A stretch of DNA of 38,890 nt from Gemmatimonadota bacterium (GTDB lineage Bacteria > Latescibacterota > UBA2968): contig JAPPIE010000165.1 in the NCBI GenBank assembly GCA_028874765.1, positions 1 to 38,890 on the forward strand, in the 5' to 3' direction. Position numbers and translations under genes: made by a program. Shown here in pieces: positions 5,024 to 24,170 of this stretch. Each line of letters starts with the position of its first letter. Within the stretch, counting starts at the first letter, position 1. The notes below the pieces were generated by a model that had not been told where the DNA came from, did no database searches, and saw only the letters and a program-made list of their open reading frames with translations.

Positions 5024-5042
5024 ATTGTGTAGATAAACGGCT

Positions 5043-5136
5043 AATGAACTGCTGGCGCAGTTGTACCTCGTTTCGTCTATTCGTCTATGAACTGGCCTGT
5101 GAAGCGGCCAGTTGTACCCCGCTCCGTCTATTCGCT
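5043..5136 (+). repeat. Imperfect tandem repeat of about 45-50 bases, each copy with a hairpin
   Basis: Copy 1 (5043-5086) and copy 2 (5087-5136) share ATGAACTG at the start, CAGTTGTACC in the middle and CGTCTATTCG near the end. Each has its own hairpin: AACTGC/GCAGTT at 5047-5062 and AACTGGCC/GGCCAGTT at 5090-5113. The stems differ in sequence but keep their pairing. The second copy ends just before the aminotransferase ATG. Confidence 0.7.
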
Positions 5137-5141
5137 TACTT

Positions 5142-6413: not shown

Positions 6414-6415
6414 CT

Positions 6416-7501: not shown

Positions 7502-7542
7502 TGATATGCCTCCAATTGAAGAAAGCCGATATGGTATGCCTC

Positions 7543-8190: not shown

Positions 8191-8207
8191 ACTATTCTCC
8201 TTATCCC

Positions 8208-8981
8208 ATGAAAAAACTATTCATCTACATCTTCATCACAACCAGCCTCTCAACGCGCGGAATCGCCCTTGCCGAACCCGTCACCGTATATGCCGCAGCC
8301 AGCTTGACGAGCGCACTGCAGGACCTCTCCAAAACCGCAGAAAAACAGGGCATATCGTTGCGAATGTCTTTTGCCGGTTCTTCGATCCTCGCCAAACAGA
8401 TAGCCCTGGGGGCGCCTGCGGATATATATTTCTCAGCTAATGTAAAATGGATGGATTTTTTAGCAACGGAAAAATTGCTCGAACCCAATACCCGAATCAA
8501 CCTGCTGGGCAACGCGCTCGTAATCATCTCCCCTAAAAATGAAAAATTCAATATCGAACCCCACGCAGACTTTGACTTCCCCAACGCATTCGATGGACAA
8601 TTAGCCCTGGGCGACCCCTCTCATGTGCCTGCGGGCATCTACGCTGTAGAAGCCCTGAAAAAATTGGGCTGGTGGCCCCTGCTCAAAAACCGCATCGCCC
8701 CGGCAATGGACGTGCGCGGCGCACTCACACTGGTCGCCCGCGGAGAATGTGCAGCCGGCATTGTCTATGCCACAGACGCGACAATCAGCGCTGGTGTCGA
8801 AATAATAGCCACACTGCCCGATTCCCTATTGAGCACACCCATTGTATATCCAATCGCCATCGTAAAAGGCCGACACACACCAAAAGTCGAAGCCGCCATG
8901 CACTTCTTTCAATCAGACACAGCGGCTGCGATCTTTCAGCGATATGGATTCCGCGTATTGGCTTCAGGAGATAAAAAATAA
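8208..8981 (+). CDS. modA: Molybdate ABC transporter substrate-binding protein
   Basis: A 257-residue periplasmic protein with a signal peptide (residues 1-22, ending near GIALA). The mature part starts PVTVYAAASLTSAL, a typical ModA N-terminus, followed by the oxyanion-binding AGSSILAKQI and PADIYFSAN. The later GDPSHVPAGIYA motif is strongly typical of ModA. It should bind molybdate or tungstate for import. No modB permease or modC ATPase gene is present in this window, so the gene stands alone. No good ribosome-binding site is seen before the ATG, which lies 17 bases from the divergent hydrolase start. Confidence 0.9.
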   Translation: MKKLFIYIFITTSLSTRGIALAEPVTVYAAASLTSALQDLSKTAEKQGISLRMSFAGSSILAKQIALGAPADIYFSANVKWMDFLATEKLLEPNTRINLLGNALVIISPKNEKFNIEPHADFDFPNAFDGQLALGDPSHVPAGIYAVEALKKLGWWPLLKNRIAPAMDVRGALTLVARGECAAGIVYATDATISAGVEIIATLPDSLLSTPIVYPIAIVKGRHTPKVEAAMHFFQSDTAAAIFQRYGFRVLASGDKK

Positions 8982-9039
8982 ATCTTTTTTGGGGTATGAC
9001 CTTGAATATCGAACTACGTGACAATTTTGGAGGCCTGGC

Positions 9040-9306
9040 GTGAACACTGTGAATAATACGGAACCTCGCATCAAAGCCATCGAGATCACCGAGGAATTGA
9101 TCATCGCTGATTTGGTGGATGGTCGGACAATCAGTGTACCGCTCGTTTGGTCCTGGCGACTTGCAGATGCAACGCCTGCTCAGCGTGAAAACTATGAATT
9201 TATCGGCGACGGTCAGGGTGTTCACTGGCCGGATATTGACGAAGACATCAGTGCAGAAGGCATGTTGATGGGCGCACCTGCACGACCCGCCAAACAGCGT
9301 GTGTAA
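9040..9306 (+). CDS. DUF2442 domain protein
   Basis: An 88-residue protein matching the DUF2442 pattern: RTISVPLVWSWRLADATPAQ, then GQGVHWPDIDEDIS, then EGML.G near the end. It starts at a GTG with a TTTTGGAGG site upstream. DUF2442 genes often travel with DUF4160 in toxin-antitoxin-like pairs, but no partner gene was found beside this one. It is followed by a terminator. The last 12 codons, the stop and that terminator are duplicated at 15071-15162. Confidence 0.85.
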   Translation: MNTVNNTEPRIKAIEITEELIIADLVDGRTISVPLVWSWRLADATPAQRENYEFIGDGQGVHWPDIDEDISAEGMLMGAPARPAKQRV

Positions 9307-9333
9307 AGTCCGAGATACTGAGAATTATTTTTA

Positions 9334-9359
9334 GGGGACCGTGATAGGTCGCCTTTTTT
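9334..9359 (+). terminator. Intrinsic terminator after the DUF2442 gene
   Basis: GGGGACC (9334-9340) pairs with GGTCGCC (9347-9353), with one mismatch, around a six-base loop, followed by six T. It is 28 bases after the stop. On the opposite strand no U-rich tail follows, so it acts in the plus direction. Confidence 0.75.
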
Positions 9360-9387
9360 GTAGAGATTTATTCTTTACCAACCGCAA

Positions 9388-10479
9388 TTAAAAATTAAAC
9401 GTGAGCGCAGCGCGAAGCCCTTTTGTAGATGTGGGTGCAACGCTCAGATTGAGGCGTTGAGGCGGCACCTCGACCCATTTATCGGTTTTTATTGTAGCAC
9501 CAATGAGAGTGGAGAGAACACAAATAGGTATAGATATGTATCCTAAAACATATAGTAATGCCAGGCCCTCCGTAGAGTCAGGGTAGTCAAGATCAAGACG
9601 TGCATATACGGCCCAGAAAATCGCAGCTCCAACACCAAGGCCAATAGCCATTCCTTTCCCCGTGTTTCTATGCTGTCCAATATTCACTTCGAAATTGGAG
9701 ATTGAAGACACGGGCACTTGAAAAAATGTGCCTCCTCTTGAGATAACGAGTGTGTCCGGTGTCATTTTGACTAGTCTGCCAACCACCTGACTCTTCCAGA
9801 TTGAAGAGGCCTGGACACGCACTTTGGTATTGTATTTATTTTTCAAGTATCTTTGGACCTGTTTTGCATTTTTCCATGCATCGATGCTCTGCGCGTGTTG
9901 CGAAATAACGAGGGTATCAATGTCCTTATAGGCTATTGTTTTCCAAATGCTCAATGCGCGCTCCTCGTGCACTCTAATCTCAATATGCACAGAGTCATGC
10001 CCGGTAATTATTCCAGTTACAGTCTCTTCCACACCTTCCGATGTGTAGATAACATGGGCATACCAACCTTTCCTAATCTTTGAAAGATCAATCTGCCCAC
10101 CTGACATGATCGTGATGGCCTTCAACTCTTCCTCTTTTTTTCTCTCTCCAATAAACCGATTCACCTCATTCATCTGCTTTAGTGTGGTTGATTCTTCACT
10201 CATAATCACGGACAGCACTTTGGCGTATGCAATGGTTTTCTTGGTCCAGTGTCCACTGCGAATTGTGAACGAAGTTTCATCAACCGCATCAATCCACCCC
10301 CTCTCCGTTTTTTCCTGGCCGTTGCGGTCGCGATAGGTGACTTGCACATAGGCATCTCGGACCAATGTATTGGCATTGCCCTCCGCGCCTTGCAGATATG
10401 TGGCTGCGTGGGCGAGCGGGGGAGTTATCGCGTTGAGTAGAAGAGCTACAGTTACAAAGATAACGGTTATTTTTTTCAT
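9388..10479 (-). CDS. Envelope protein with three SH3/Sm-like modules (family A, copy 1)
   Basis: A 363-residue exported protein of unknown function, with a signal peptide at 1-25. It contains three short beta-rich modules, at about 41-93, 130-192 and 217-266. Each has the pattern YVxVxY, then GxI, then a hydrophobic strand and a final IxxL-type strand, resembling an SH3 or Sm-like barrel. Module 2 begins GGQIDLSKIRKGWY. Two hydrophobic segments follow at about 275-293 and 306-330, then the tail KWVEVPPQRLNL...GLRAALTFNF ending in Phe. Similar third modules and tails occur in uncharacterised proteins of Gemmatimonadota-like bacteria, from memory. It is the last gene of a likely five-gene minus-strand operon. 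Confidence 0.75.
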   Translation of the reverse strand: MKKITVIFVTVALLLNAITPPLAHAATYLQGAEGNANTLVRDAYVQVTYRDRNGQEKTERGWIDAVDETSFTIRSGHWTKKTIAYAKVLSVIMSEESTTLKQMNEVNRFIGERKKEEELKAITIMSGGQIDLSKIRKGWYAHVIYTSEGVEETVTGIITGHDSVHIEIRVHEERALSIWKTIAYKDIDTLVISQHAQSIDAWKNAKQVQRYLKNKYNTKVRVQASSIWKSQVVGRLVKMTPDTLVISRGGTFFQVPVSSISNFEVNIGQHRNTGKGMAIGLGVGAAIFWAVYARLDLDYPDSTEGLALLYVLGYISIPICVLSTLIGATIKTDKWVEVPPQRLNLSVAPTSTKGLRAALTFNF

Positions 10480-10515
10480 AAATTTATCCTGCTCTCCGAA
10501 TCAGCGAACCGCACT

Positions 10516-11520
10516 CTAAAAATTGAAAGCAACGCTGAGGATATGCACTCGGGGATCCTCAATGCGATAATTGAAGGACCTGCGCGCGTAATCCACCTTC
10601 ACACCTCGACCACCTGTGGTCTTAAACTGCAAGCCACCTCCCCATGTGATGGGATTTGCAGAACTCCAGGACCCTCTGGATCTTCGTCCTCCTCGCAGTG
10701 AGACACCCAGAGAGTAGCCCTCTGCCTGGTACAAATACGTATATTCCATGCCCATATTCAATTCAACAGCCTCGTCAAAATTGATCTCAGTATTCACATC
10801 CAAGACCAGATCCAGCGTATGTGGCAAGGGCCTCATCCCCGTCAGCGAAACCACATCAATGAGCACCCCCATGCGGATGATCTCTGGAAGCTCCAATACC
10901 TCTGGCTTGCCTAACCCACCTGCACTCAAGTTATGCACACTCAACGCCATCACCAGATTCTGAAGCCCCATGGAATATGCGCCTACATCAAAAACAAAAA
11001 AATTGTGAACATATTTCGGGGTTGTGTCTGGATATTCACGAAAAATACCGTCTTCAAGATATAGCTCACCTGCGTTGGAATAGTCGTGATGCACAAACTC
11101 GACAGTGGCTCCCGCTGCAATTCGACGGGTAATATTGAACGCATAAGCCCCAGAAATGGCATATTCGTTCTCATTCTCATTATTGTTATCGAGATTCACA
11201 GCAGAAAGCCCGAATGTCCCTTTGCCCGACACATTTGCTGCAAAGCCAGCTACGTAGTTCCTGGAACCACTAATCCAATCCACGTACGTGAGATACGCTT
11301 CCCGACCTTCCATAAAAGCCAGTCCTGAGGGATTATAAAAAATAGCTTGTCCGCTTCCGATCAATCCCACACCCGCCTCACTCAAAGCAGCGGTGCGACC
11401 ACTGTTAGGACGAAATAAAACGTCGTACCCCGTTGACCTGATAACCGTCTGTGCGCCCCCCTCGCCTGCCATGAGCCATATACACAGTGTGCATAGCCCA
11501 ATTAGAGTATATCGTCTCAT
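10516..11520 (-). CDS. PorV/PorQ-like outer-membrane beta-barrel protein (family B, copy 1)
   Basis: A 334-residue predicted outer-membrane barrel. The signal peptide starts MRRYTLIGLCTLCIW. The hallmark GLIGSGQAIFYNPSGLAFM resembles the N-terminal motif of PorV/PorQ and related FadL-like barrels. Alternating beta strands continue to the terminal HILSVAFNF, a typical Bam signal. The ATG at 11520 is chosen over one 12 codons upstream because the two paralogues start at the same MRR. PorV takes part in type IX secretion in Bacteroidota, but no other T9SS gene is visible, so no such role is claimed. It follows a family C gene by 49 bases. Confidence 0.82.
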   Translation of the reverse strand: MRRYTLIGLCTLCIWLMAGEGGAQTVIRSTGYDVLFRPNSGRTAALSEAGVGLIGSGQAIFYNPSGLAFMEGREAYLTYVDWISGSRNYVAGFAANVSGKGTFGLSAVNLDNNNENENEYAISGAYAFNITRRIAAGATVEFVHHDYSNAGELYLEDGIFREYPDTTPKYVHNFFVFDVGAYSMGLQNLVMALSVHNLSAGGLGKPEVLELPEIIRMGVLIDVVSLTGMRPLPHTLDLVLDVNTEINFDEAVELNMGMEYTYLYQAEGYSLGVSLRGGRRSRGSWSSANPITWGGGLQFKTTGGRGVKVDYARRSFNYRIEDPRVHILSVAFNF

Positions 11521-11569
11521 GATTACATATTCTCTGATTGAAGTAACAGTATTCATCCTGCGACAATCC

Positions 11570-12790
11570 CTAAAACTCTAAAAGCGGTCCAATAGCCACC
11601 GACATGCCCGAAATAAAAGGATCTGGAAAATACCCCACCAAAAAATCTTTTCGCACACTGGCTTGCAAACTGACGCGCGAATGGACAGGCATCAGAAAAG
11701 CAACTCCCGCAGACCAGCATAAAAAATTTCTGGGAGATTCCACCGGCTCCCTCCCGTAATTAAAAAAGGAAGTCCTGTACGCTATTCCGCCTGCAAGATC
11801 CGCCAGCATGACACCTCGCGTATTTTTGTAAACGACTCGTTGGTAGGCCAGCAACACCGAAACCAATCGATAGGTGACACCATCTCTATGCCGAATGGAT
11901 TCGCTCCTGGGAGCGAGAGGGAATCGCTCTGCGAGTTCGGCCTGGGTATATCTTCCGAATATCTGAATTTTCCGATAGGCACCTCTCAGGGCAAGTCGCC
12001 AACGTCTCGCGTCACCAAATAAAAGAGACACTGACACAGGTAGTCCTTTTTTACCTATCGATCCACCAAAGTAGAGATCCAGAAATTCTGTTCTAACGCC
12101 CGTAAAATAGCCAGTTTCAAACAACAGCCTTATCCCAAGCCCGTTCTTTGTTCGCACAGAAAGCGAATCCATTGGCTGTCTGAGTTTGTCTATCCCGCGG
12201 TCAGCGTCTAAAATTGTTATCTTTTGAACGCGGGCCAAAGCGATCTGTTCTTCCAAAAACCGTTCGCCAACAATCAAATACTCCGCATCAACAGCTCTGA
12301 CATATCCTTTTACTTTCTTTACACCTTCCCACTCTCCTGATACTGGATCGCCCTTCCCATAGATAACCTCGACAAAATCACCGACTTCAACCCTGCTGCT
12401 ATCAATCTCACCGACTTCTAAAACAATCTCCTTCTGCAATGTCCGTGATCCGAAAGGCGAGTCAATCCCTTTGGCGCTATCCATCTCGCGATCAGTGTCT
12501 GGAATCGTCAGCTTTTGAATGCGCTCTAATAGAATCTCCTTCTTCCAAAACCGCTCGCCAATAGTCAAAGTTTCCAAATCAATAGCTTTGATATATCCTT
12601 TTACTGTATCCAGTTTCTCCCACTCTCCTGACACCGGGTCCCGCTCTCCCTTCCCGTAAATGACCTCGACATAGGCACCGGGTTTAACCGTACTGCTATC
12701 AACCTCACCAGCTTCAAAGACCACCCCTGCCAGCGAGGTCTCTGACATGCACACGCCCAAAACCAAAACGATTGTAGCTATTCGTGCCAT
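11570..12790 (-). CDS. Envelope protein: two SH3/Sm-like modules plus C-terminal beta-barrel (family C, copy 1)
   Basis: A 406-residue exported protein. The signal peptide is about residues 1-21. Module 1 (about 28-96) and module 2 (about 125-193) are duplicates, each with EVGEIDSS or EAGEVDSS, then YVEVIYGKG, then PVSGEWE, then KGY, then a closing strand. The rest (about 217-406) consists of amphipathic strands ending GPLLEF and looks like a small outer-membrane barrel. AAGGAGGAC precedes the ATG. It sits between two PorV/PorQ-like genes. No function is known. Confidence 0.75.
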   Translation of the reverse strand: MARIATIVLVLGVCMSETSLAGVVFEAGEVDSSTVKPGAYVEVIYGKGERDPVSGEWEKLDTVKGYIKAIDLETLTIGERFWKKEILLERIQKLTIPDTDREMDSAKGIDSPFGSRTLQKEIVLEVGEIDSSRVEVGDFVEVIYGKGDPVSGEWEGVKKVKGYVRAVDAEYLIVGERFLEEQIALARVQKITILDADRGIDKLRQPMDSLSVRTKNGLGIRLLFETGYFTGVRTEFLDLYFGGSIGKKGLPVSVSLLFGDARRWRLALRGAYRKIQIFGRYTQAELAERFPLAPRSESIRHRDGVTYRLVSVLLAYQRVVYKNTRGVMLADLAGGIAYRTSFFNYGREPVESPRNFLCWSAGVAFLMPVHSRVSLQASVRKDFLVGYFPDPFISGMSVAIGPLLEF

Positions 12791-12822
12791 GAGTCCTCCT
12801 TTCCGAATCAGTGATCCACACT

Positions 12823-13788
12823 CTAAAAATCAAAAGCAACACTGAGAATATGCACCCGTTCATAAAAAAGAGATTCAAAGGACTTGCTTGTGTAATCCAC
12901 CTTCAAACCTATACCCTGGGTCTTAAACAACACGCCAATACCCAGAGTGTTGGGATCTATGATGCTCCCGGGTCTTTTTTTTCGTCCTGCTCGCAACGAA
13001 AATCCCAACATATCGCCTATAGCGGTCTGGTACGTATAGGTATATTCAAATCCTATATCTGTGTAGAAACCATCCTCAGAATCATTTGGATTATTCACAT
13101 CTACGACCAGATCCAGAGTATGAGACAAGAGATCGAAATTCATCAGCGCAATCAAATCGAGAAGCACACCCAGCCGCACATTCTTCGGAAGTCCCCACCG
13201 CTCTGGCTCACCTAACCCGCTCGTGCTCAAGTTCTCAACGCCCATCGCGATCACCGTATTCCGAAATCCCGTAGCAAAATACGTGCCCAAATCAAAGGCA
13301 AAGACATTTTGCGTACGCTCTGGAAAGCTCTGATGAATCAACTTGAGGGTGGTCCCCAATGCAATCCGGTCAGTGATCAGGCCCCCATAAGCCCCAGAAA
13401 TAGCATACTCGCTGATTTCTAGCGTGGTATTCTCGGACTCGATAGGACCGGTATCGTGATTCTCAACAGAAAGTCCCAATGTCCCTATACGCGGCACATT
13501 TGCTGAAATGCCAGCCACATAATACTTGATACTACTAATCCAATCTACATACGTAAAATACGCTTCCCGACCTTCCATAAAAGCCAGTCCCGCTGGATTG
13601 TACAAAATAGCCTGTCCACTCCCGATCAATCCCACACCAGCCTCACCCAGAGCTACCGTGCGGGCATTTTTGGGATACTGCAAAAAAGTGAACCCCGTCC
13701 CCGTTACCCCATCGGATTCCTGGGCAAATCCCTCGCCTGCTATCACCCAAATCAGTGTGCATAACCCAATTAGCGTATATCGTCTCAT
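12823..13788 (-). CDS. PorV/PorQ-like outer-membrane beta-barrel protein (family B, copy 2)
   Basis: A 321-residue paralogue of the barrel at 10516-11520, with the same signal peptide start (MRRYTLIGLCTLIWV) and the motif GLIGSGQAILYNPAGLAFM. Later strands include GDMLGFSLRAGR and the terminal HILSVAFDF. The ATG at 13788 is preferred to a TTG two codons upstream. A GGGAAGGGTAAGG stretch acts as ribosome-binding site. It follows a family C gene by 54 bases and precedes another by 32, repeating the C-B order. Confidence 0.82.
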   Translation of the reverse strand: MRRYTLIGLCTLIWVIAGEGFAQESDGVTGTGFTFLQYPKNARTVALGEAGVGLIGSGQAILYNPAGLAFMEGREAYFTYVDWISSIKYYVAGISANVPRIGTLGLSVENHDTGPIESENTTLEISEYAISGAYGGLITDRIALGTTLKLIHQSFPERTQNVFAFDLGTYFATGFRNTVIAMGVENLSTSGLGEPERWGLPKNVRLGVLLDLIALMNFDLLSHTLDLVVDVNNPNDSEDGFYTDIGFEYTYTYQTAIGDMLGFSLRAGRKKRPGSIIDPNTLGIGVLFKTQGIGLKVDYTSKSFESLFYERVHILSVAFDF

Positions 13789-13842
13789 GGTCAAACCTTA
13801 CCCTTCCCAATTGAACTGGTGGTATTTATCCTGCAACAATCC

Positions 13843-15027
13843 TTAAAACTCTAAAATCGGTCCAATAGCCAATGATATTCCCGACTTAAAAGGCGTGATG
13901 GATGCGTTCGGCTTTGGCTTGTATAAATTCGCTCGCACCGCAGCCTGCACGCCAATACTCCGATGGAAAGGCAGTATGAACGCAAGCCCAGAAGAAATGT
14001 GCGTACTGGACGCGGGAAAACAAACCCCGTCGCAGTACCTGAAGTCGTCATTTGTGAGCGACTTACCCATCGCAATCTCCGCCACTACCATACCTGCCGT
14101 GCTTCTTAGAATCACAAATTGATAGTTCAGCAGCAGCGATGACATCCAGAGGCGAGAGTGTTTGGGAAAGGGACCTCTTGCATCTGCTTCTACGACCTGG
14201 CGGACATATTTTATTCCCAACCGTCCACGCCTCTCACCCGTAAGAAAACGACCAAAATAACAGGATACAGACCACGGCTGTCTCGTTTGTGTGTCGAAGC
14301 CCGCAGCATACGCCCCTCCTCCGGGGTTAGATATCCAGGAAACATCATAGGGATAGACGCCCCCATTCCAGCCAATTTCAATATTCAATCCCACACCGCG
14401 CCTGCTCTTTATTCTTGAATCTCTTCTCCCTTCAATATCCCGTTGGTGTTTTGCAACAGCGAGTGTATCGATGTCACTGTATGCTATTTTCCAGTTCTTC
14501 CAAAAACTTTCCCGACTCTGGATTACAATACGATCTGAGTCCTTGCCGACAATCTTTCCAATGGCAGTTCCTCTATCCCCGTCTGATGTATAAACGACCT
14601 GCGCATACCATCCCGTCGCGATCTTTGACGTGTCAATCTCCCCGCGTGCCATAATCGCAACAGCCTTCTGATCAAAACGTTGTATCGCAGTCTGCGCTGT
14701 CTCTAACACTGACTTTTTTATTTCGCGAGCAACTTCTAAAATCGTCAGCTTTTGAACGCGCTCCAATGCGATCTCCTTCTTCCAAAACTGTTCCCCTATA
14801 ATCAACCGCTCTGCATAAACAGCTTGAATATATCCCCTTGCCGTATCCAGTCTCTCCCACTCTCCTGACACTGGATCTCGTTCTCCTCTCCCATAGACAA
14901 TCTCGACATAGGAACCGGGCTTAACCGCGCTGCTGTCAATCTCACCGGCTTCAAAGGCTACCCCTGCCAGTAGTGTCTCTGGCATACATACGCTTAACAT
15001 CCAAACGATTGCTATCATTCGTACCAT
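13843..15027 (-). CDS. Mosaic envelope protein: family C module, family A module, family C beta-barrel
   Basis: A 394-residue exported protein with a signal peptide at 1-21. Residues 27-97 are a family C module (YVEIVYGRGERDPVSGEWE). Residues 126-193 are a family A module (ARGEIDTSKIATGWYAQVVY, then KIAYSDIDTLAVAKHQRDI). From about 205 it returns to the family C barrel, ending SGISLAIGPILEF. This suggests replacement of the second family C module by one from family A. The ATG at 15027 is supported by AGGCGGA; upstream in-frame codons fall in a duplicated DUF2442 scrap and are rejected. Confidence 0.75.
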   Translation of the reverse strand: MVRMIAIVWMLSVCMPETLLAGVAFEAGEIDSSAVKPGSYVEIVYGRGERDPVSGEWERLDTARGYIQAVYAERLIIGEQFWKKEIALERVQKLTILEVAREIKKSVLETAQTAIQRFDQKAVAIMARGEIDTSKIATGWYAQVVYTSDGDRGTAIGKIVGKDSDRIVIQSRESFWKNWKIAYSDIDTLAVAKHQRDIEGRRDSRIKSRRGVGLNIEIGWNGGVYPYDVSWISNPGGGAYAAGFDTQTRQPWSVSCYFGRFLTGERRGRLGIKYVRQVVEADARGPFPKHSRLWMSSLLLNYQFVILRSTAGMVVAEIAMGKSLTNDDFRYCDGVCFPASSTHISSGLAFILPFHRSIGVQAAVRANLYKPKPNASITPFKSGISLAIGPILEF

Positions 15028-15070
15028 AATTTCCGCCTGTTGAAATAAGTGAACGCAGCCGTTAGTTCGA

Positions 15071-15109
15071 GTGGGCGTACCCGCACGACCCGCCAAACAG
15101 CGTGTGTAA
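15071..15109 (+). pseudogene. Remnant of a second DUF2442 gene (last 12 codons and stop)
   Basis: Read in the plus frame this gives VGVPARPAKQRV and a stop, against MGAPARPAKQRV at the end of the intact gene at 9040-9306. Similarity continues past the stop through the terminator and ends near 15178. Upstream of 15071 the similarity stops abruptly, so the body of the gene is lost. Confidence 0.75.
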
Positions 15110-15138
15110 AGTGCGAGATACTAAGGCACTATTTTCAG

Positions 15139-15162
15139 GCGACCCTCAGAGTCGCTTTTTTT
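15139..15162 (+). terminator. Duplicated intrinsic terminator
   Basis: GCGAC (15139-15143) pairs with GTCGC (15151-15155) around a seven-base loop, followed by seven T. It corresponds in place to the terminator at 9334-9359, with stem changes that keep the pairing. It now follows only a gene remnant. Confidence 0.65.
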
Positions 15163-15214
15163 GTGGATTTATTCTTAAACCATTCCATCTATTTGAGCAG
15201 ATTTTGGGAGCCAT

Positions 15215-16105
15215 TTAAAACCGCAACGTAGCCACCGCCGACAAATTGCCCTCGCGATCAGGCGCGATCCCGACAGAGAAACTCCGAGACCCAAACGAAT
15301 CTCGTGATCTTTCGGACATCATAACGGCTCCAGCGAGCGGCAACCCAAGAATGGAAGCGATCATCCCTTCTACGATATACTCACTTGATGATGACGCTGC
15401 GAGCGCGCTAATCACGCCACTTGCCGCTGCTCCCATTAGACTACCCATTAGTGTCTTACCGAAACTATCATAAGGATCCGCAATACTTACCCCAATAGGG
15501 ACGCCGACTGTATAGCCAATTCCGCCTACAAACAGCGCGCTATACAGTGTACCAAAGCTACATCCAGTATCATCATAACCACAATCTTCTGCCCTTATAA
15601 AAACGATGGCCCCTCCTAAAAATCCCAGGAGGCCACCACTCAGAGTACCAAAAGACAACTTTTTGGCGACACGATTATTAGATGAAGATTGTTCTATGAA
15701 GGAATCTTCGACGCGCTGAAGTTGGCGCAGGTGATCGTACACTAACAACACCTCAATCCTCGCCCTCAGAATGCGTTTGCGTAAGCCTCCGCGATAAATC
15801 GTCAACTCGGTCTCATCCATCGCGCGGACAAATCCCTCTGCTGTATCGGTCTTGCCATCCTCCTTGCGATAGGTCACACGCACATAGCGATCTTTGGCAA
15901 CAATCACCTTGCGTGCCTCTTCACCCTCATAGCTTTCCACATCGCCAGTCCAGACTAATGACGCATTGCCACTCTGACCGTCCCAAGAAAACGGCTGAGC
16001 AGAATTGAAAAATGACCGCGAATGGGGGGCAAAGCTGGGCACCTGGCCCTGCACAGTTGAAAAACTCGCCATAAATAAACCGAGCGTCATACACAATATC
16101 CTCAT
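15215..16105 (-). CDS. Envelope protein: one SH3/Sm-like module plus glycine-rich membrane domain (family D)
   Basis: A 296-residue exported protein with a signal peptide near 1-20. After a variable linker, a single module spans about 72-124 (DRYVRVTYR, then GFVRAMDETELTIY, then ARIEVLLVY). The C-terminal part (about 148-296) is rich in Gly and hydrophobic residues, with GGIGYTVGVPIGVSIADPYD and an ending AVATLRF. Cys175 and Cys182 form a DC-x6-C pair also found in the chimeric gene at 19545. AGGAGGG precedes the ATG at 16105, so the 11 open codons upstream are excluded. Function is unknown. Confidence 0.75.
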   Translation of the reverse strand: MRILCMTLGLFMASFSTVQGQVPSFAPHSRSFFNSAQPFSWDGQSGNASLVWTGDVESYEGEEARKVIVAKDRYVRVTYRKEDGKTDTAEGFVRAMDETELTIYRGGLRKRILRARIEVLLVYDHLRQLQRVEDSFIEQSSSNNRVAKKLSFGTLSGGLLGFLGGAIVFIRAEDCGYDDTGCSFGTLYSALFVGGIGYTVGVPIGVSIADPYDSFGKTLMGSLMGAAASGVISALAASSSSEYIVEGMIASILGLPLAGAVMMSERSRDSFGSRSFSVGIAPDREGNLSAVATLRF

Positions 16106-16210
16106 AAAAGTACCCTCCTCAATCTTGATTCGTAACACCAGTTACGAGTAGATCCATTTTCAGACCATTCACAAGCGAGCACTGTATCTTGCAAGCTACT
16201 TTCGGCACAG

Positions 16211-16628
16211 TCAATTTGATGATACGACTTTGCCAAAGGCATTGGCAAAAATCAGAAAATCTCCAAATCCGATCCTGCCATCCCCGTCCAGATCAAACTG
16301 CGCGTCATACCCCTCATCGTCCTCACCGAACCCGAACTGCTCGCAAAGAAGGTCTGAATCTGGCGAATGGTCACTTTCATCGAATCCACCACCTCCTGGC
16401 GAAAGGGACGGTCATTCGGCAAAAAGTAGATCATTCGAACAGTGAGGGGTTCGCCTGCGTTTAAATTAAACGTTTGTTTTGGCGCAGCATATAAACTATC
16501 GCGCGCACGCTGGTCAAGCGGCAGACAGAAATGCACATCTGTGGATGGCGGCGAAGCATATCCAACAGACGATAGACAGAGCAAAGCAAACACGCGCTCA
16601 GGCTGAGTGTATTGCAATATATTCTCAT
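16211..16628 (-). pseudogene. Frameshifted remnant: exported metalloprotease-like N-terminus joined to a dockerin half
   Basis: One frame gives a signal-like region, then LTVRMIYFLPNDRP, then VDSMKVTIRQIQTFFA, which recalls the start of large secreted metalloprotease-like proteins of this type of bacterium (from memory). After TTTGC the sense moves to another frame, giving EQFGFGEDDEGY, then FDLDGDGRIGFGDFLIF and a stop at 16211. That second piece matches the second dockerin loop of the 278-1486 protein. A further frame change lies near the ATG at 16628, which has an AAGGTGA site. The interior of the original gene appears deleted. The exact ends are uncertain. Confidence 0.6.
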
Positions 16629-16637
16629 GAATTCACC

Positions 16638-16787
16638 TTATCTGTATTTAACTTGCACATAGGCATCTCGAATCAGCATATTGGCATTGACCTGTGTGCC
16701 CTGTAGATATGTGGCTGCGTGTACGAGCGTTGGCATCATCGCATTGAGCAGGACTGCCAAAACCGTAACCATAGTGACTATTTTCAT
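16638..16787 (-). pseudogene. Truncated family A paralogue (signal peptide and first strand only)
   Basis: The 49 residues from the ATG at 16787 read MKIVTMVTVLAVLLNAMMP, then AATYLQGTQVNAN, then IRDAYVQVKYR and a stop. This matches the first 50 residues of the gene at 9388-10479. The stop falls where the intact copies continue (YRDRNGQ). The next coding remnant starts 10 bases downstream, so this is probably a deletion junction. Confidence 0.75.
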
Positions 16788-16884
16788 CGGCCTCTCCTTT
16801 ATGTGCAGGTCAGGTATAGAAACGAACCGTTGCCCGAGCTTGTCAAAGGGCGTTTCCAAGAGCAGATAAGCCTATGATTTTGAC

Positions 16885-17736
16885 CTAAAAAACGAATGCT
16901 ATACTGACAATGTGCTGGTCTGGGTAAGCCATGGAAGTCAAGGGCGCGTAATCCACCCTTATACTACGACCACCTTCCGTCTCTAACTTCAGCCCAATCC
17001 CCCAGGTCGTATCACCTACACCTATGCCATATATTGATTGCACTCCTCCGCGCAGCGCGATTTCCAACGCATAGCTTGATAACAGGTATCTGTACTGATA
17101 CTCAATGCCCAGATTCGCCCAAGAACCTCTGTCATCATTGATATAATCGTTCACATCTACAGCAAGGTCCAGATAGTGCGACAAAGACTCCGGCTCCAAC
17201 AACGACATCAAGTCGAAGAACAACCCGGCACGGAGTTTAACATGTCCAAAACCTGTCCGCCTCACATTCTCCATGCCTGCTGCAACAATTGTATTCCGCA
17301 ACCCGGTCACGAAATATGTACCCAGATCAAGGTTTAAGTCGTCGGCCCTGAACCTTCCCGAATGAAACAGACGGAGAGTAGCTCCCACCGCAAATCGGTC
17401 ACTGATCATGACCCCATAGCCGCTGGAGATGGTATAGTCACTTGAATAATAACCGTAATTGATCGCGGAAAGTCCGAAAGTTCCTATGCCTGTGTTCCTC
17501 GCAACACCAGCTATGTATTGAGTATAATCTCTATCTACGAATGTGAAATGTGCCTCCCAGCCATCCATAAAGGCCAATCCTGCTGGATTGTAATGAATGG
17601 CCTGCCCGCTCCCAATTAAGCCTATGCCCGCACCAGCCAGAGCTTCTGTCCGAGCATTCAGCCCCCGGGCGAATCCCTCACCTGCCATCAGTCCTATGAA
17701 CAGTATGTATAGCCCGATCAGAAAATATCGTCTCAT
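16885..17736 (-). CDS. PorV/PorQ-like outer-membrane beta-barrel protein (family B, copy 3)
   Basis: A 283-residue, shorter paralogue of the barrels at 10516 and 12823. The signal peptide is MRRYFLIGLYILFIGLMA. The motif GLIGSGQAIHYNPAGLAFM is kept. The terminal strand is QHIVSIAFVF. The segment between the signal peptide and the motif is about 15-20 residues shorter than in the other copies. AAGGTGA precedes the ATG. It follows the family A gene at 17819 by 82 bases. Confidence 0.82.
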   Translation of the reverse strand: MRRYFLIGLYILFIGLMAGEGFARGLNARTEALAGAGIGLIGSGQAIHYNPAGLAFMDGWEAHFTFVDRDYTQYIAGVARNTGIGTFGLSAINYGYYSSDYTISSGYGVMISDRFAVGATLRLFHSGRFRADDLNLDLGTYFVTGLRNTIVAAGMENVRRTGFGHVKLRAGLFFDLMSLLEPESLSHYLDLAVDVNDYINDDRGSWANLGIEYQYRYLLSSYALEIALRGGVQSIYGIGVGDTTWGIGLKLETEGGRSIRVDYAPLTSMAYPDQHIVSIAFVF

Positions 17737-17818
17737 AATTATTCACCTTTCGCGATTGGTATTTGTCAAAAGAGCGGAAAAAAGGAGAAACGCCCCTTGA
17801 AATACGGGGTAGCGGCCA

Positions 17819-19246
17819 TCAAAAATTAAACGTGAGCGCGGCGCGAAGCCCTTTTGTGGATATGGGTGCAACGCTCAGGTTGAAGCGTTGAGGCGGCACC
17901 TCAACCCATTTGTCGGATTTGGTCATCGCGCCACTGAAAGTGAAAATAACGAGGATAAGTCCACCTATAACCATCCCACCTAATGCAATTGCAAGAGCAT
18001 CGAGAGAATCATCAGGAGTAGTTTCGTCAATGTGTTCCGCATGTCGGAAGAAGACCGCGACTGTAGCAGATCCCAGTCCCACTCCTGCTAACAGGCCTTT
18101 GCCTATATTTCTATGCTGTCCAATGCTGACTTCAAGATTGGAGATCGACGACAGGGGCACTTGAAAAAAAGTACGCCCTTCTTGAATAACAAGTGTGTCT
18201 TCTGTTACTTCGACGAGCTTGCCAACTATCCGTCTTTTTGAAACGGAAGGTGCTTTGAAACGCACTTTGGTATTGTATTTCGCGCCACTTTCTCGATACC
18301 TTTCGATATCTCGCCACTGTTTGGCAACAACGAGTGTATCAATGTCATCATAAGCGATTGTAATGGTGGTCATCCGATCCCGTCTATCTTTTATTATTTC
18401 TATCCTATCCTTGATCACCTGGCGGACCGATATGCGAAATACATCTTTATCTAAAATCCATCCGGCTATAGTTTTTTTCTTTTCATCTTCGGATGTATAA
18501 ATGACCTGGGCATACCACCCTTTCAGGATTCTTGAAGGATCAATCTGTCCGCGTGACATAACCGAGACAGTCTTTTCGCGTAATTTTTGTATAGCCTGTC
18601 CTGCATTCTTCCACCCCGCAATGTCTTGCTGATATTTCGCAACAGCGAGTATATCAATATCACTGTATGCTATTTTCCTGTATCTCCCAGATCTATACTT
18701 AGCCTCTTGGATCATAAGATGATCTGAATCTTTGTCGGTAATCTTTCCAACTGCGACTTTTTTCTTTTTATCTTCGGATGTATAGACGACATGGGCATAC
18801 AGCCCCTTTGCGATTTTTGACAAATCAATCTGTCCGCGAGGCATGACTTTGACAGTCTCTGCCCATTGTATGGCCTGTTGTGTATTGCCCGTAGTCCGAA
18901 TAAACCGGTTCACCTCATTCATCTGCTTTGCTGGCACAGTTGATTCGTCACTCATGATCACAGACACAACTTTATCGTAGGCAACGATCTTCTTGTCTCT
19001 GAATCCTCCTTCTCGGATTGTGAACGAAGTTTCGCCAATCGCATCAATCCATCCCCTCGCCGTTTTTTTTGGGCCGTTGAGGTCGCGATAAATGACTTGC
19101 ACATAGGCATCTCGGACCAACGTATTGGCATTGATCTCTGCCAGATCTACGGCTGCGTGTGCGAGCGTGGGAGCCATCGCATTGAGCAAGAGGGCTGTAG
19201 TGACCAGGATGGCGATGGCTCTAATCGCGTTGTATTCGACCTGCAT
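17819..19246 (-). CDS. Envelope protein with four SH3/Sm-like modules (family A, copy 3)
   Basis: A 475-residue exported protein, the longest of its family here. The signal peptide ends near residue 31. Modules lie at about 46-99, 139-204, 233-309 and 324-376. The second and third are duplicates that start RGQIDLSKIAKGLY and RGQIDPSRILKGWY, and the third has a long charged insertion. Two hydrophobic segments (about 383-400 and 416-441) are followed by KWVEVPPQRFNL and GLRAALTFNF. AAGGAGA precedes the ATG. Function is unknown; a cell-envelope location is inferred from the signal peptide and terminal Phe. Confidence 0.75.
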   Translation of the reverse strand: MQVEYNAIRAIAILVTTALLLNAMAPTLAHAAVDLAEINANTLVRDAYVQVIYRDLNGPKKTARGWIDAIGETSFTIREGGFRDKKIVAYDKVVSVIMSDESTVPAKQMNEVNRFIRTTGNTQQAIQWAETVKVMPRGQIDLSKIAKGLYAHVVYTSEDKKKKVAVGKITDKDSDHLMIQEAKYRSGRYRKIAYSDIDILAVAKYQQDIAGWKNAGQAIQKLREKTVSVMSRGQIDPSRILKGWYAQVIYTSEDEKKKTIAGWILDKDVFRISVRQVIKDRIEIIKDRRDRMTTITIAYDDIDTLVVAKQWRDIERYRESGAKYNTKVRFKAPSVSKRRIVGKLVEVTEDTLVIQEGRTFFQVPLSSISNLEVSIGQHRNIGKGLLAGVGLGSATVAVFFRHAEHIDETTPDDSLDALAIALGGMVIGGLILVIFTFSGAMTKSDKWVEVPPQRFNLSVAPISTKGLRAALTFNF

Positions 19247-19318
19247 GGATTTCTCCTTTTGTTCCGTACAAAAAAAATCGCATTTCGTTCCTCATCTACG
19301 CAAGGCGCAGTGTGACGA

Positions 19319-19372
19319 GTTGACAACTGACTGTTTCGACACCCCAAAAAAGGGGTGTCGGGCATTGTCAAC
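19319..19372. repeat. Nested palindrome in the intergenic region
   Basis: CGACACCCC (19337-19345) and GGGGTGTCG (19352-19360) pair perfectly around six A. Outside them, GTTGACAA (19319-19326) and TTGTCAAC (19365-19372) also pair. A further TGTCAACAGTC at 19366-19376 has its inverted copy GACTGTTGACA at 19493-19503. No T-run follows on either strand, so a simple terminator is unlikely. The 298-base gap 19247-19544 otherwise shows no gene. Confidence 0.65.
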
Positions 19373-19544
19373 AGTCACGCAGGAATAGAAATGCGGGAAT
19401 GTCCTACCTATTTACCGAGACATGGGGGATCAGTCCATATCTATAAATCGGCTATTGTATTCAGCAGATACCCGACATAACGGCACCTGCTTGACTGTTG
19501 ACAAAAGTAAAATATATCATTCCCGCGGTTTTTCAAATATTTTT

Positions 19545-20342
19545 TCAATAACGAAGCGTAGCAACAGCGAATACGCTACCTTTGAGACCGGGCAGCAGAC
19601 CGATAGAGACACGACGATCCTCTAACGGTTTGCGGAACAACTCGGACATGATCGCCGCGCCAATAAGGGGACTGATAACAAGGGCCGGCCAGAGGTCTTC
19701 TGCGATTTTTTCGTCCATCTTGAGCACCGCAAGACTTACTGTACTTCCTATCAGGCTGCCAGCCAATGAATAGGTAAATCGATCATGTGGGTCACATAAG
19801 CTCACGCCGACGGGCACACCGACAACCCAGCCAATCCCGCCACCGATTGCAATTGGTGGAACAAAACATCCCAGATCTTCAGATTGGCAGTCATCCATCG
19901 CAGCAGCGATTCCGGTCCCCACAATGCCGGATAAGAACCCAACAAGAGCACCGCAGCCCAACTTTTTGGTCATTCGCGAATACCCATTCTCTTTTCTCAC
20001 AGAGGGCGAATCAGTCGTCTCTTTAAGCCTGTCTATTTCACGGTCAGACTCTGCAATGGTCAGCTTTTGAATGCGCTCAAAGACTATCTGCTCCTTCCAA
20101 AAACCACGTCTAATAGTCAAACTCTCAGCATCAACAGCTTTGATATATCCCCGTACAGTGTCCAGCCTCTCCCACTTCCCTGAGACTTGATCCCGTTCAC
20201 CAGTTCCATAGATGACCTCGGCATAGACACCGACTTTAACCTTACTGCTATCAATCTCACCGGCTTCAAGGACCATCTCCGCTGGCGACACCTCTGGCAT
20301 ACACATGCTCAAAATCAGAACGATCACTGCTGTTCGTGCCAT
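19545..20342 (-). CDS. Chimeric envelope protein: family C module plus family D membrane domain
   Basis: A 265-residue exported protein. The signal peptide and module (about 28-97, EAGEIDSSKVKVGVYAEVIY, then SGKWERLDTVRGYIKAV) belong to family C. Residues from about 128 belong to family D: GIGWVVGVPVGVSLCDPHD, the DC-x6-C pair at 152 and 159, and a terminal AVATLRY. The junction lies near residues 105-128. AGGAGA precedes the ATG. Its 5' flank resembles that of the gene at 13843, which supports a duplicated family C front end. It likely follows the gene at 20395 in one operon (52-base gap). Confidence 0.75.
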   Translation of the reverse strand: MARTAVIVLILSMCMPEVSPAEMVLEAGEIDSSKVKVGVYAEVIYGTGERDQVSGKWERLDTVRGYIKAVDAESLTIRRGFWKEQIVFERIQKLTIAESDREIDRLKETTDSPSVRKENGYSRMTKKLGCGALVGFLSGIVGTGIAAAMDDCQSEDLGCFVPPIAIGGGIGWVVGVPVGVSLCDPHDRFTYSLAGSLIGSTVSLAVLKMDEKIAEDLWPALVISPLIGAAIMSELFRKPLEDRRVSIGLLPGLKGSVFAVATLRY

Positions 20343-20394
20343 AAATTTCTCCTGTCAAAATATGCGAACATAGTCGTTAGCTCGATCCCTGACG

Positions 20395-21603
20395 TCAAAA
20401 ATTAAACGTAAGCGCAGCGCGAAGCCCTTTTGTGGATGTGGGTACAAGGCTCAGATTGAGGCGTTGAGGCGACACCTCAACCCATTTGTCGGATTTTGAT
20501 ATAGCGCCAAGTATTGTACCAGTTAGGGTGGATAGGACAGCAGCGGGAAAACCCATCACCATTAACTCGAAGGAAGCCCAGTCCCGCTCGGTGCCACCAT
20601 CCAAATATATCTCGTCATCGGCTCTGTATATTTTCCAAAAAGCTATTGCAAGAATGCCAAGTCCTATACTAAGACCAGTTTTAGCACCTTTGTCGGTGTT
20701 TCTATATCGTCCAATACTCACTTCGAAATTGGAGACCGAAGACACGGGCACCTGATAAAATGTGCGTCCACCCTGGATAAAGAGCGTGTCAAAATTCACT
20801 TTAACCAGTCGTTGTCGCCGTCCAGGAGCATAAGTCTGCAAGGGACCTTCGATAATGAGGGTGTCTTGCATCGCCGCGACAAGTCTGCCGGTTATCCGCC
20901 TTTTTGAAACTGAAGGTATTTTGAAACGCACTTTGGCTTTGTACTTTGCACCGAGTTCTCGATATCGTTCAATGTCTCGCATATTTTTGGCAATTCTGAG
21001 TGTATCGATGCCATTGTAGGCTATTTTCCAGTATTGCTGGTTATTCAGGATTATGATATCGTTTGCCATTTTATTGACAATACGCCCGGTTGCGTTTCCC
21101 TTTTCCCCTTTCGATGTATAAACGACATGAACATACCAATTCCAGGGAATTTGCGAGGAATCAATCTGCCCGCGAACCATGACTGTGACTGGCTTCTGAT
21201 TGAGTTTCTGTATGGCGGCCTGTTTTCTATCTTGTTTTGCTTGCTCTACCACTCGTTTTCTCATAAACCGATCCACTTCATTGATTTGTTTTATCGGTGT
21301 GGTAGATTCGCCGCTCATGATCACTGACAGGACTCTGTCGTAAGCAATGGTATCCTTGCCGAAAAGTGCTCTGCTTCGAATTTTAAATGTGGTCTCATCA
21401 ATAGCGTAAACCCACCCCTTCTTCAATTTCTGTTCTCCATTGCTATCGTAATAGGTGACTTGCACATAAGCATCTTGGACCAACGTATTGGCATTAACCT
21501 CTGCACCTTGCAGGTATATGGCTGCATACACGAGCGTGGGAGCCATCGCATTGATCAGGATTGCCATGACCATAACAATAGAAAGAGACCTAAAAATAGG
21601 CAT
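20395..21603 (-). CDS. Envelope protein with SH3/Sm-like modules (family A, copy 4)
   Basis: A 402-residue exported protein with a signal peptide ending near residue 28. Modules lie at about 43-96, 144-204 and 221-297. The last contains an internal extra hairpin: GRLVAAMQDTLIIEG is echoed by QRLVKVNFDTLFIQGG. Hydrophobic segments follow at about 307-325 and 346-368, then KWVEVSPQRLNL and GLRAALTFNF. The ATG at 21603 is chosen for its signal peptide and the GGGGGAA site; it overlaps the upstream barrel gene by 14 bases. Confidence 0.75.
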   Translation of the reverse strand: MPIFRSLSIVMVMAILINAMAPTLVYAAIYLQGAEVNANTLVQDAYVQVTYYDSNGEQKLKKGWVYAIDETTFKIRSRALFGKDTIAYDRVLSVIMSGESTTPIKQINEVDRFMRKRVVEQAKQDRKQAAIQKLNQKPVTVMVRGQIDSSQIPWNWYVHVVYTSKGEKGNATGRIVNKMANDIIILNNQQYWKIAYNGIDTLRIAKNMRDIERYRELGAKYKAKVRFKIPSVSKRRITGRLVAAMQDTLIIEGPLQTYAPGRRQRLVKVNFDTLFIQGGRTFYQVPVSSVSNFEVSIGRYRNTDKGAKTGLSIGLGILAIAFWKIYRADDEIYLDGGTERDWASFELMVMGFPAAVLSTLTGTILGAISKSDKWVEVSPQRLNLSLVPTSTKGLRAALTFNF

Positions 21604-22117
21604 GTATTCCCCCGCCTGCATAAACGCCAGCGAGACCTTTAGATTGAGAGCCGATTTTTTCCCGACCAAACCCCTGACCGATTTCCACGTTCAAACCCAG
21701 AGGAATCCCCCCAAGCGAAAACACAATCTCGCCTCCAAAAGCGAGTCCAGTTCCCAGCGTCGTGGTTTTGACAGTCTCCTGGCGGAGATCCTCCTCTTTT
21801 TTTTCTTGCCAGCCACCTTCGAGCGTGAAATGAAGTCGGGCAATATTCCACCGGCTTTGATGCTCGAATATCGCATACGAAACGCCAGCGCCCAACATAT
21901 GGTCGCTATACTGACCATTGAGAATAAAACGCCCAACGGCTTGAAGATATACCGGTGCCAGTCCGTTATAGCGAAAACTAATCCCACCAAATGTGGGTGT
22001 CGCGCCCTGAAGACCAATACCATAACTCCTGGTGAGATCAGTCTTTTTCGCCTGAACTGAAAAACTGAAGGATACAATCGAAAAGACACAGACCAGGTAA
22101 GAAATTGAGCGTGTCAT
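21590..22117 (-). CDS. Small outer-membrane beta-barrel-like protein
   Basis: A 175-residue exported protein not related at sequence level to its neighbours as far as can be seen. The signal peptide is about 1-23 (ending SVQA). Short amphipathic strands rich in Gly and aromatic residues follow (ISFRYNGLAPVYLQAVGRF, ARLHFTLEGGW, VFSLGGIPLGLNVEIGQGF), and it ends in Phe (GGGIHAYF). This suggests an eight-stranded barrel. AGGAGA precedes the ATG. It is first in the likely operon with the genes at 20395 and 19545. Function is unknown. Confidence 0.7.
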   Translation of the reverse strand: MTRSISYLVCVFSIVSFSFSVQAKKTDLTRSYGIGLQGATPTFGGISFRYNGLAPVYLQAVGRFILNGQYSDHMLGAGVSYAIFEHQSRWNIARLHFTLEGGWQEKKEEDLRQETVKTTTLGTGLAFGGEIVFSLGGIPLGLNVEIGQGFGREKIGSQSKGLAGVYAGGGIHAYF

Positions 22118-22162: not shown

Positions 22163-23167
22163 CTACACCTGCTGAAGGCCATCATTTTTCGGCGTCGCAT
22201 CAGCCCCCTTGCCCCGCGGTCCGATCAGCAGCAGCGTTAAACCCACCTGCATCCAGAAAAGCCTCCGAATCCGCCGAACAATGCCCACAGCCAAACCCAT
22301 CTTTGGATCCAAACCCATCAAATGAAACAAAAACACATGCCCGCCTTCAAAAACGCCCATCCCGAGCGGAACAAAAAAGAACGCCGCGTTAATCACGACC
22401 ATCAGCGCGTGGAACAGATACACCCAAACAAACGGCATCGGTTCGCCGAGCACATAAAGAATCACATAAATCTCCAGCGTCCCCATGCTCCAGCCCAACA
22501 GATGTAAGCCCAACAACCCCACCAAACGCCACCTATTCAACCGATAAAACTGCGCCAAATTCTCGTCAATCTCCACCGCGCGATCGCGGAACCGCTCCAA
22601 AAACCTGAGCCGCAACCACAGCATCAAATTCAAAAACCGCGCAAAGGGACTTCGGCGCTGCCTGAAAACCGTCCAGACAACCCCCAGAACAGACAGCACC
22701 AGAACAGCGATCAGAGCACCCCGCACCTCAGCCGGCCACGAAAACCGCTGCAAACCTATCACAACACCACCGATCACAAAAATTACCCCGCCAATCATCT
22801 CGCCCGTCTTATTGACCACCAGCGATGACACCCCGCGAGAAACGCACATCTTATCTCTCAGCACAATCGCCTTGCCGACCTCCTTGCCAACCTGCGATGC
22901 CGGCGCCACATTGCCCACTGCCTCGCCAGCCAACTGCACCCACAGCAACAGCCGCAACCGCGGCCTCTTCTCCCCGCGATCAAAGCACGCCCGCCATATC
23001 CACGCATGATGAACAAATACCATTAGCGACAGACCGATCACAGGCACATAGCCCCAGCCCATCATCAAAACATGCTGCCACACCTCTGGGGTACTGAGCT
23101 GGTACAAAAGCACACCCAGACTGGCAAACCCTATCAGACAAAGTACAATATGCGTTCCCTGTTTCAT
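22163..23167 (-). CDS. LPG-synthase-type (UPF0104) polytopic membrane protein
   Basis: A 334-residue membrane protein of the lysylphosphatidylglycerol synthase TM-region / UPF0104 family. It has about eight hydrophobic helices and the typical motifs GEAVGNVAPASQVGKEVGKA near residue 80 and PLGMGVFEGGHVF near residue 270. The real start is the ATG at 23167 with AGGAGA upstream; an open frame extending to 23671 overlaps the next gene out of frame and is excluded. No catalytic FPG_synthase C-terminal domain is present, so it is the membrane part only. It lies 26 bases after a CDP-alcohol phosphatidyltransferase gene, which suggests a lipid-modification or lipid-transport role. Confidence 0.85.
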   Translation of the reverse strand: MKQGTHIVLCLIGFASLGVLLYQLSTPEVWQHVLMMGWGYVPVIGLSLMVFVHHAWIWRACFDRGEKRPRLRLLLWVQLAGEAVGNVAPASQVGKEVGKAIVLRDKMCVSRGVSSLVVNKTGEMIGGVIFVIGGVVIGLQRFSWPAEVRGALIAVLVLSVLGVVWTVFRQRRSPFARFLNLMLWLRLRFLERFRDRAVEIDENLAQFYRLNRWRLVGLLGLHLLGWSMGTLEIYVILYVLGEPMPFVWVYLFHALMVVINAAFFFVPLGMGVFEGGHVFLFHLMGLDPKMGLAVGIVRRIRRLFWMQVGLTLLLIGPRGKGADATPKNDGLQQV

Positions 23168-23193
23168 GTCATTCTCCTGAAAAAACGAATACC

Positions 23194-24059: not shown

Positions 24060-24104
24060 CCTGTCAAATAGATTGTAAATTTTATCAGCAGTTTATCGAC
24101 GCAA

Positions 24105-24130
24105 GGACAACCACAGGGGGTTGTCCCTAC
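24105..24130. repeat. Palindrome related to the interspersed GC-rich element
   Basis: GGACAACC (24105-24112) pairs with GGTTGTCC around a short G-rich loop, ending in CCCTAC like the GC-rich elements. It is only ten bases from the copy at 24141-24170 and may be a diverged member of the same family. Confidence 0.55.
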
Positions 24131-24140
24131 ATAGTTCAGT

Positions 24141-24170
24141 TGTAGGGGCGGTGCCCCTGTGCCCGCCCGT
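24141..24170. repeat. GC-rich interspersed palindrome, copy 3 (opposite strand)
   Basis: Reads TGTAGGGGCGG and ends GCCCGCCCGT on the plus strand, the reverse complement of the copies at 4995 and 38758. It starts eight bases downstream of the response-regulator stop codon, so its orientation relative to the upstream gene matches copies 1 and 2. Confidence 0.75.

Follow-up and report, generated by a model that had tools for sequence, protein, structure and literature searches.

Opa, Msp2/p44 and Pmp are families of recombining outer-membrane or surface proteins, and several bacterial SH3-like domains, small barrels marked by five strands, the last of them preceded by a one-turn helix, bind the cell wall. 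In sponge symbionts, WD40 and leucine-rich repeat (LRR) proteins belong to a class discussed as eukaryotic-like proteins (PMC12993501; PMC9531527), and PMC9143113 describes type B clients of the type IX secretion system (T9SS) as associating with PorP-like barrels. Here we compare with these systems a gene array at positions 9388–21603 of a 38,890-nucleotide contig (JAPPIE010000165.1, our C85; hereafter the window), part of a 4.9 Mb draft genome (G000) whose close GTDB relatives are Latescibacterota metagenome-assembled genomes (MAGs). The array, encoded on the minus strand throughout, comprises seven intact genes for exported proteins that share an SH3-like module (in the order of transcription J, I, H, F, E, C and A), a truncated copy of such a gene, three PorV-family barrels (G, D and B) and what is left of a WD40 gene (Table 1). 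A preliminary description of the window had placed module genes at eight positions, seven intact and one fragmentary, and all eight are correct; our literature search for a described system with such a layout returned nothing relevant. The anatomy of the array, its fixed chromosomal site, the re-pairing of protein ends, the fragments, a scarred empty site in one relative and the restriction to certain lineages can be read from the sequences, and are the features of what is very probably, as an evolutionary description, a birth-and-death, domain-shuffling locus.

All module proteins begin with a hydrophobic Sec-type signal sequence with no obvious lipobox, as judged by eye from the sequence, in agreement with the export proposed for them earlier. 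The module (~65–75 residues) is present once in F and I, twice in C and E, three times in A and J, and four times in H. The 16 aligned copies fall into four types, of which a (consensus NANTLVRDAYVQV) and b (GEIDSSTVKPGAYVEVIYGxGERDPVSGEW) lead, and g (GQIDLSKIxKGWYAHVVYTS) and d (YNTKVRVxAPSIxKxxVVGRLVKMTQDTLVIQxG..FFQVPxSSISNLEVSIG) are internal. Members with different C-termini match each other by BLAST with E-values of ~1e-4 to 1e-44, bearing out the claim of one shared module, in one to four copies, joined to different C-terminal parts, of which the window holds three types; the last residue is Phe in six of the seven intact proteins and Tyr in I, which fits the earlier 'mostly Phe'. Across the 4.9 Mb genome, the module profile matches this array and one other contig (C55) only.

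The AlphaFold models agree in giving five strands and a one-turn helix before the last to every module of H (four) and of E (two), with pLDDT, the per-residue confidence score, at ~60–88. Foldseek matches for the module models are tandem Tudor (Spindlin) and SPT5 chains, the d module of H scores above cut-off against PF17384 (the RimP C-terminal SH3 domain), and among PDB sequences the best match, a weak one, is bL19 (E 0.0014). A common SH3-like fold, the fold check proposed for the modules, is well supported by these models. Identification of the module proteins as RimP was rejected, there being no RimP N-domain and only the C-terminal SH3 model matching, in exported multi-module proteins. 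A family of SH3-like modules on interchangeable membrane anchors escapes curated libraries, and merits a name and a profile.

Six types of C-terminal anchor were found altogether, T1–T3 in the window and T4–T6 in relatives. T1 (A, H and J) is a predicted helical hairpin with a conserved tail ending ALTFNF, and T2 (F and I) contains three or four hydrophobic segments rich in glycine, with ATLRF/Y at the end of its tail; both look like helical hairpins in the predictions. T3 (C and E) forms eight long strands in a low-confidence AlphaFold model, and its Foldseek matches (E ~1e-3) are the OprF N-domain (the best, TMt 0.62, E 1.1e-3), Opa60, OmpA, Ail and OmpX; the model supports a T3 that looks like an 8-strand outer-membrane barrel. 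T4 and T5 are putatively barrel-like. Sixteen module–anchor combinations were counted, a count in which d was in places merged with T1; it is listed separately here. Architectures with T1 or T2 in the genus include a-g-d-T1, a-g-g-d-T1, a-a-g-d-T1, a-T1, a-a-T1, a-T2, a-a-T2, a-b-T2 and b-T2; those with T3–T6 include b-T3, b-b-T3, b-g-T3, a-b-T4, b-b-T4, a-b-b-T4, b-T5 and b-T6.

The two ends of these proteins frequently have different histories. In 39 of 59 array genes, the N-terminal part has other nearest relatives than the C-terminal part; among 15 array barrels split into halves as a control, this was so for 3. The comparison is only indicative, as copy number and divergence are not the same in the barrels as in the module genes. 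In approximately unbiased (AU) tests on 25 genes of the a...T1 class, the N-terminal and C-terminal parts reject one another's trees (p = 7e-7 and 2e-5). Gene C is a mosaic relative to its counterpart in the same-genus genome G003, with ~97% identity over the modules, 61–81% over a 500-base T3 tract (~11681–12180) and ~90% thereafter, and the synonymous divergence (dS) from one genome is uneven between neighbours (E 0.15, D 0.08, C 0.29, B 0.38). These discordant ends, together with the variable gene content described below, favour the diversifying locus that was among the earlier suggestions. Neither a recombinase nor a reverse transcriptase was found among the Pfam-scanned genes of the window, the arrays of relatives having been scanned in part. 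Given the chimeras, the fragments, the scars and the lack of a recombinase, we infer unequal homologous recombination between paralogues.

Throughout one Latescibacterota genus the array lies between a histidine kinase (HK)-NtrC-CDP-alcohol phosphatidyltransferase (CDPOH)-LPG synthase-K block, on which side a sulfatase is also encoded, and a DUF2442-ModA-GDSL-MocA block. The flank proteins are mostly ~89–98% identical in the same-genus relatives G001–G008, and less so in G009. K is 90–95% identical in eight of nine same-genus relatives (G009 is without it), and also adjoins the empty site of a tenth (G010); the stretch first noted included K, which lacks a module, is conserved as a single copy and belongs to the flank. 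Between the flanks, the content ranges from one collapsed gene (159 residues) in G001 and one gene in G006 to ~10–12 kb in G002, G004 and the window. G008, a complete one-contig genome, has ~12 kb between ModA and K and ~20 kb between CDPOH and NtrC (~32 kb), together with a duplicated LPG synthase tail and a second site at 3.73 Mb; it also has an intact gene at the position matching the window's truncated copy. The site in G010 is empty: K ends 56 bases from ModA, and the junction reads as the opening bases of J run together with the closing bases of a T1 gene, a deletion scar which shows that an array was formerly present.

In three genomes from another family of the order (G016–G018), a g-g-d-T1 gene lies directly behind the LPG synthase gene, so the site is old. 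Modules occur in nine of ten same-genus relatives, none of four genomes from other genera of the family, five of six from the rest of the order and a few of the class, a restricted distribution that agrees with the earlier idea of a lineage-specific envelope family. An assembly artefact was rejected, since the array is present in the complete one-contig genome, as was the possibility that the genes are unlinked, because they share one site across the genus and lie beside LPG synthase in the three genomes of the other family. Contig C55 (L114, G000:C55, 5792 bases), from the same assembly as the window, has 99% DNA identity to window positions 5148–8987 (the MocA-GDSL-ModA flank), with a different a-g-d-T1 gene lying between ModA and DUF2442. 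The other flank occurs only once in this assembly. Either C55 stems from a co-assembled strain whose array differs, or it is a partial duplication. It is also without the dispersed repeat found at 4986–5147 of the window, and so represents an empty site of that repeat.

The variety of the array is due to recombination, gain and loss more than to rapid point change. The ratio of nonsynonymous to synonymous substitution (dN/dS) is 0.15–0.44 for array orthologues and 0.07–0.29 for the flanks, which implies that the array genes are maintained; accelerated amino-acid change was rejected, as the ratio never exceeds 1. The locus could instead be a largely neutral collection of paralogues, in which redundant envelope genes multiply and degenerate at a hot spot of recombination with no selection for variety. 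Fragments and frameshifted copies are indeed common among the array genes, G010 lives without an array, and dN/dS is slightly above that of the flanks. However, most copies keep their reading frame and signal sequence, the dN/dS range is that of purifying selection, and both site and family persist over an order-level distance; such neutral decay is unlikely, somewhat more so than the scaffold considered next.

Since both ends of an 8-strand barrel face the periplasm, the modules of C and E probably sit there, if T3 is as modelled, and the array proteins more widely would be placed at the outer membrane. Adhesion by the modules, one of the roles first suggested, is weak as a simple reading and not supported, because barrel-anchored members should turn their modules to the periplasm. 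Modules so placed might form a scaffold, binding peptidoglycan or the tails of envelope proteins and tying down outer-membrane barrels, in which case their variety would track partners and not an outside enemy. The periplasmic N-terminal extension expected of the modelled T3 barrel, the cell-wall binding known for several bacterial SH3-like domains and the barrels encoded directly behind module genes all suit a scaffold, but no known SH3b cell-wall-binding family matches the modules in a Pfam scan, and the entire set can be lost, as in G010. We regard a scaffold as rather doubtful; both it and neutral decay nevertheless remain serious rivals to a locus that serves envelope variation.

The array barrels had been described as three interleaved PorV/PorQ-like proteins. 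All three match PorV_fam (NCBIfam NF033709, curated cut-off 90 bits), although only D, at 119.9 bits, is above the cut-off (B 64.5, G 38.1). They are mutually 39–51% identical (B 51% and G 42% to D), a D-type profile matches PorV (6h3i) weakly, and their scores against the T9SS PorV equivalog NF033710 (20.1, 39.1 and 14.2 bits) are far below its cut-off of 250 bits. Array-type barrels are present in G000, G003, G005, G007, G008 and G009, with none in G001, G002, G004, G006 or G010. In each of the 18 cases examined, the array barrel or barrel fragment comes immediately after a module or anchor gene of the same strand, mostly one of T3, T4 or T5 type, and four module-bearing genomes (G001, G002, G004 and G006) have no array barrel: wherever there is such a barrel an array gene precedes it, but an array gene need not be followed by a barrel. 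An obligatory barrel partner was therefore rejected, and the expectation that barrels and modules always co-occur fails; where a PorV-family barrel is present, it probably works together with the preceding module protein.

This arrangement raises the possibility of a type IX-like route, with the module proteins as cargo and the PorV-family barrels as carriers, comparable to SprB-type proteins with PorP/SprF-type barrels. The match of the barrels to the PorV/PorQ family, the position of every array barrel, the association of type B clients with PorP-like barrels (PMC9143113) and a SprA translocon gene elsewhere in the genome (PF14349, 98 bits, C450:20900–22372; SprA being the component examined) would accord with it. 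Against this, Pfam and NCBIfam searches found no T9SS C-terminal sorting domain on any module protein (Por_Secre_tail matches only with E 0.16, in the middle of H), the module proteins have their own membrane anchors, and the barrels are missing from the four genomes named above. Such a route is improbable; with no T9SS sorting domain on the module proteins, the export apparatus suggested earlier is not supported.

The arrays of relatives also hold secreted WD40 proteins of ~800–1600 residues, with up to 17 repeats and a dockerin-like FDLDGDGMIGFGDFLIFANAFGK tail, and an LRR protein; the second site of G008 encodes an FN3/He_PIG protein. The open reading frame (ORF) at 16252–16617 of the window, missed in the preliminary description, belongs to a collapsed secreted WD40 gene. 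In several relatives, although not in the window, an AlbA_2/RecG-like gene with a Fic-like C-terminal domain lies beside ModA and DUF2442. The locus unites secreted WD40/LRR proteins and a modular envelope family at one recombining site. Eukaryotic-like repeat proteins are among the main means proposed for sponge symbionts to avoid digestion, and the jk18x record names of two relatives follow the naming of Ircinia sponge MAGs in PMC9531527.

In the mechanism that we propose, each gene would give rise to a Sec-exported envelope protein with one to four SH3-like modules and one of several interchangeable membrane anchors, and some module genes would be followed by a co-directional PorV-family barrel as a probable partner. 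Copies would arise by tandem duplication, within-gene recombination would re-pair N-terminal modules with anchors, and loss would occur by deletion between copies, while the chromosomal site stays fixed. The purpose may be to vary the symbiont envelope, for host recognition, phage escape or the binding of different envelope partners. Taken as a whole, a shuffling locus of modular envelope proteins serving envelope variation is the account that we narrowly favour. Selection of that variation by host or phage is a tentative element of it, somewhat less probable than not in our judgement, and we are more doubtful of a combinatorial scheme, in which the fixed site of this uncultured, sponge-associated lineage continually re-pairs modules, anchors and partner barrels alongside secreted WD40/LRR proteins such that related strains present different envelopes to the sponge or to phage.

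Besides the limits of the barrel control, several observations weigh against this account. The whole-protein models of H and E are modest (mean pLDDT 59–62, with global pTM scores of 0.27 and 0.35), and the T3 Foldseek matches reach no better than E ~1e-3. No positive selection was seen in the array orthologues, where dN/dS is below 1, and C55 may represent a duplication instead of another strain. The setting suggests a purpose directed towards sponge or phage; the likely periplasmic position of the modules, which in T3 proteins should face away from host or phage, weakens that case. The natural deletion in G010 and the possible strain-level variant C55 make the envelope-shuffling hypothesis testable.

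Table 1. Features of the array, its edges and companion genes in relatives (window coordinates unless a contig or genome label is given)
Feature	Position	Strand	Description
J	20395..21603	-	Signal sequence, modules a-g-d (d partly duplicated), anchor T1
I	19545..20342	-	Signal sequence, module b, anchor T2 (glycine-rich hydrophobic segments, tail ATLRY)
H	17819..19246	-	Signal sequence, modules a-g-g-d, anchor T1; structure modelled
G	16885..17736	-	PorV-family barrel, short form, 283 aa; 38.1 bits, below cut-off
Truncated a-type copy	16638..16787	-	49 codons; signal sequence and start of module a; stop inside first module
WD40 gene remnant	16211..16628	-	Collapsed; N-terminal part fused to tail FDLDGDGRIGFGDFLIFANAFGKVVSSN; secreted type
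F	15215..16105	-	Exported, one a-like module, anchor T2
Duplication scar	15072..15176	+	DUF2442 3' end and downstream sequence copied into array; 84% to 9269–9375
E	13843..15027	-	Signal sequence, modules b-g, predicted C-terminal 8-strand outer-membrane barrel T3; structure modelled
D	12823..13788	-	PorV/PorQ-family barrel; 119.9 bits, cut-off 90
C	11570..12790	-	Signal sequence, modules b-b, predicted T3 barrel; mosaic relative to G003 counterpart
B	10516..11520	-	PorV/PorQ-family barrel; 64.5 bits, below cut-off
A	9388..10479	-	Signal sequence, modules a-g-d, anchor T1
K	21590..22117	-	Small exported barrel-like flank protein, single-copy, no module; one array edge
DUF2442 gene	9040..9306	+	Opposite array edge; duplicated along with array in some relatives
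WD40 protein genes in relatives' arrays	L132:7972-10437, L096:1550-6394, L122:1-3723		
AlbA_2/RecG-Fic-like genes in relatives	L131:9290-10756, G008:1245749-1247227, G004:C97:30887-32344		

Intergenic gaps in the array are mostly 20–190 bases (298 between I and H), the start of J overlaps K by 14 bases, and the GC content is ~46–49%, compared with ~50–58% in the surroundings. Outside the array, the LPG synthase-like ORF (22163–23671) overlaps the CDPOH gene (23194–23841) by ~480 bases; as the Pfam match begins at residue 179, the first ~155 codons of the ORF are probably outside the protein. The protein encoded at 278–1486 has beta-propeller repeats of LDL-receptor class B and matches dockerin weakly; this stretch of DNA has many 70–80% copies elsewhere in the genome. 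A Penicillin-binding protein 1C-like gene (30123–32408) adjoins a bacterial alpha-2-macroglobulin gene (32541–38066), a known pairing. A short dispersed repeat occurs at 4988–5134, near 24104–24170 and at 38758–38787, with copies on dozens of contigs of the genome.

The modules have the same five-strand fold with a one-turn helix as the small SH3-like barrels of the RimP C-domain (PF17384), bL19 and the Spindlin tandem Tudor, but they are exported, repeated one to four times and fused to membrane anchors, with no ribosome or chromatin context around them. T3 of C and E resembles the 8-strand barrels of OmpA, OmpX, Ail and OprF type in its modelled strands and Foldseek class (E ~1e-3), whereas it carries an N-terminal SH3-like tandem instead of a C-terminal OmpA domain. 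Over their length, B, D and G show homology to the PorV/PorQ family (NF033709), with only D above its cut-off; in contrast to T9SS PorV and PorQ, they fall far under the equivalog cut-offs and are set in a multigene array behind module genes. The order of an exported-protein gene followed by an outer-membrane barrel gene recalls the T9SS type B client and PorP/SprF-type barrel (PMC9143113), although the array lacks a type A or B C-terminal signal, its barrel is PorV-type, and many of its module genes are barrel-less. WD40 and LRR proteins of the kind reported as eukaryotic-like repeat proteins in sponge symbionts occur in relatives' arrays, while the SH3-module proteins are outside any class listed there (PMC9531527; PMC12993501). 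The array showed neither silent cassettes nor switching of expression sites. As in the Opa, Msp2/p44 and Pmp families, its exported proteins are paralogues set apart from one another by recombination, gain and loss; unlike those families, the array re-pairs whole modules and anchors at one fixed site.

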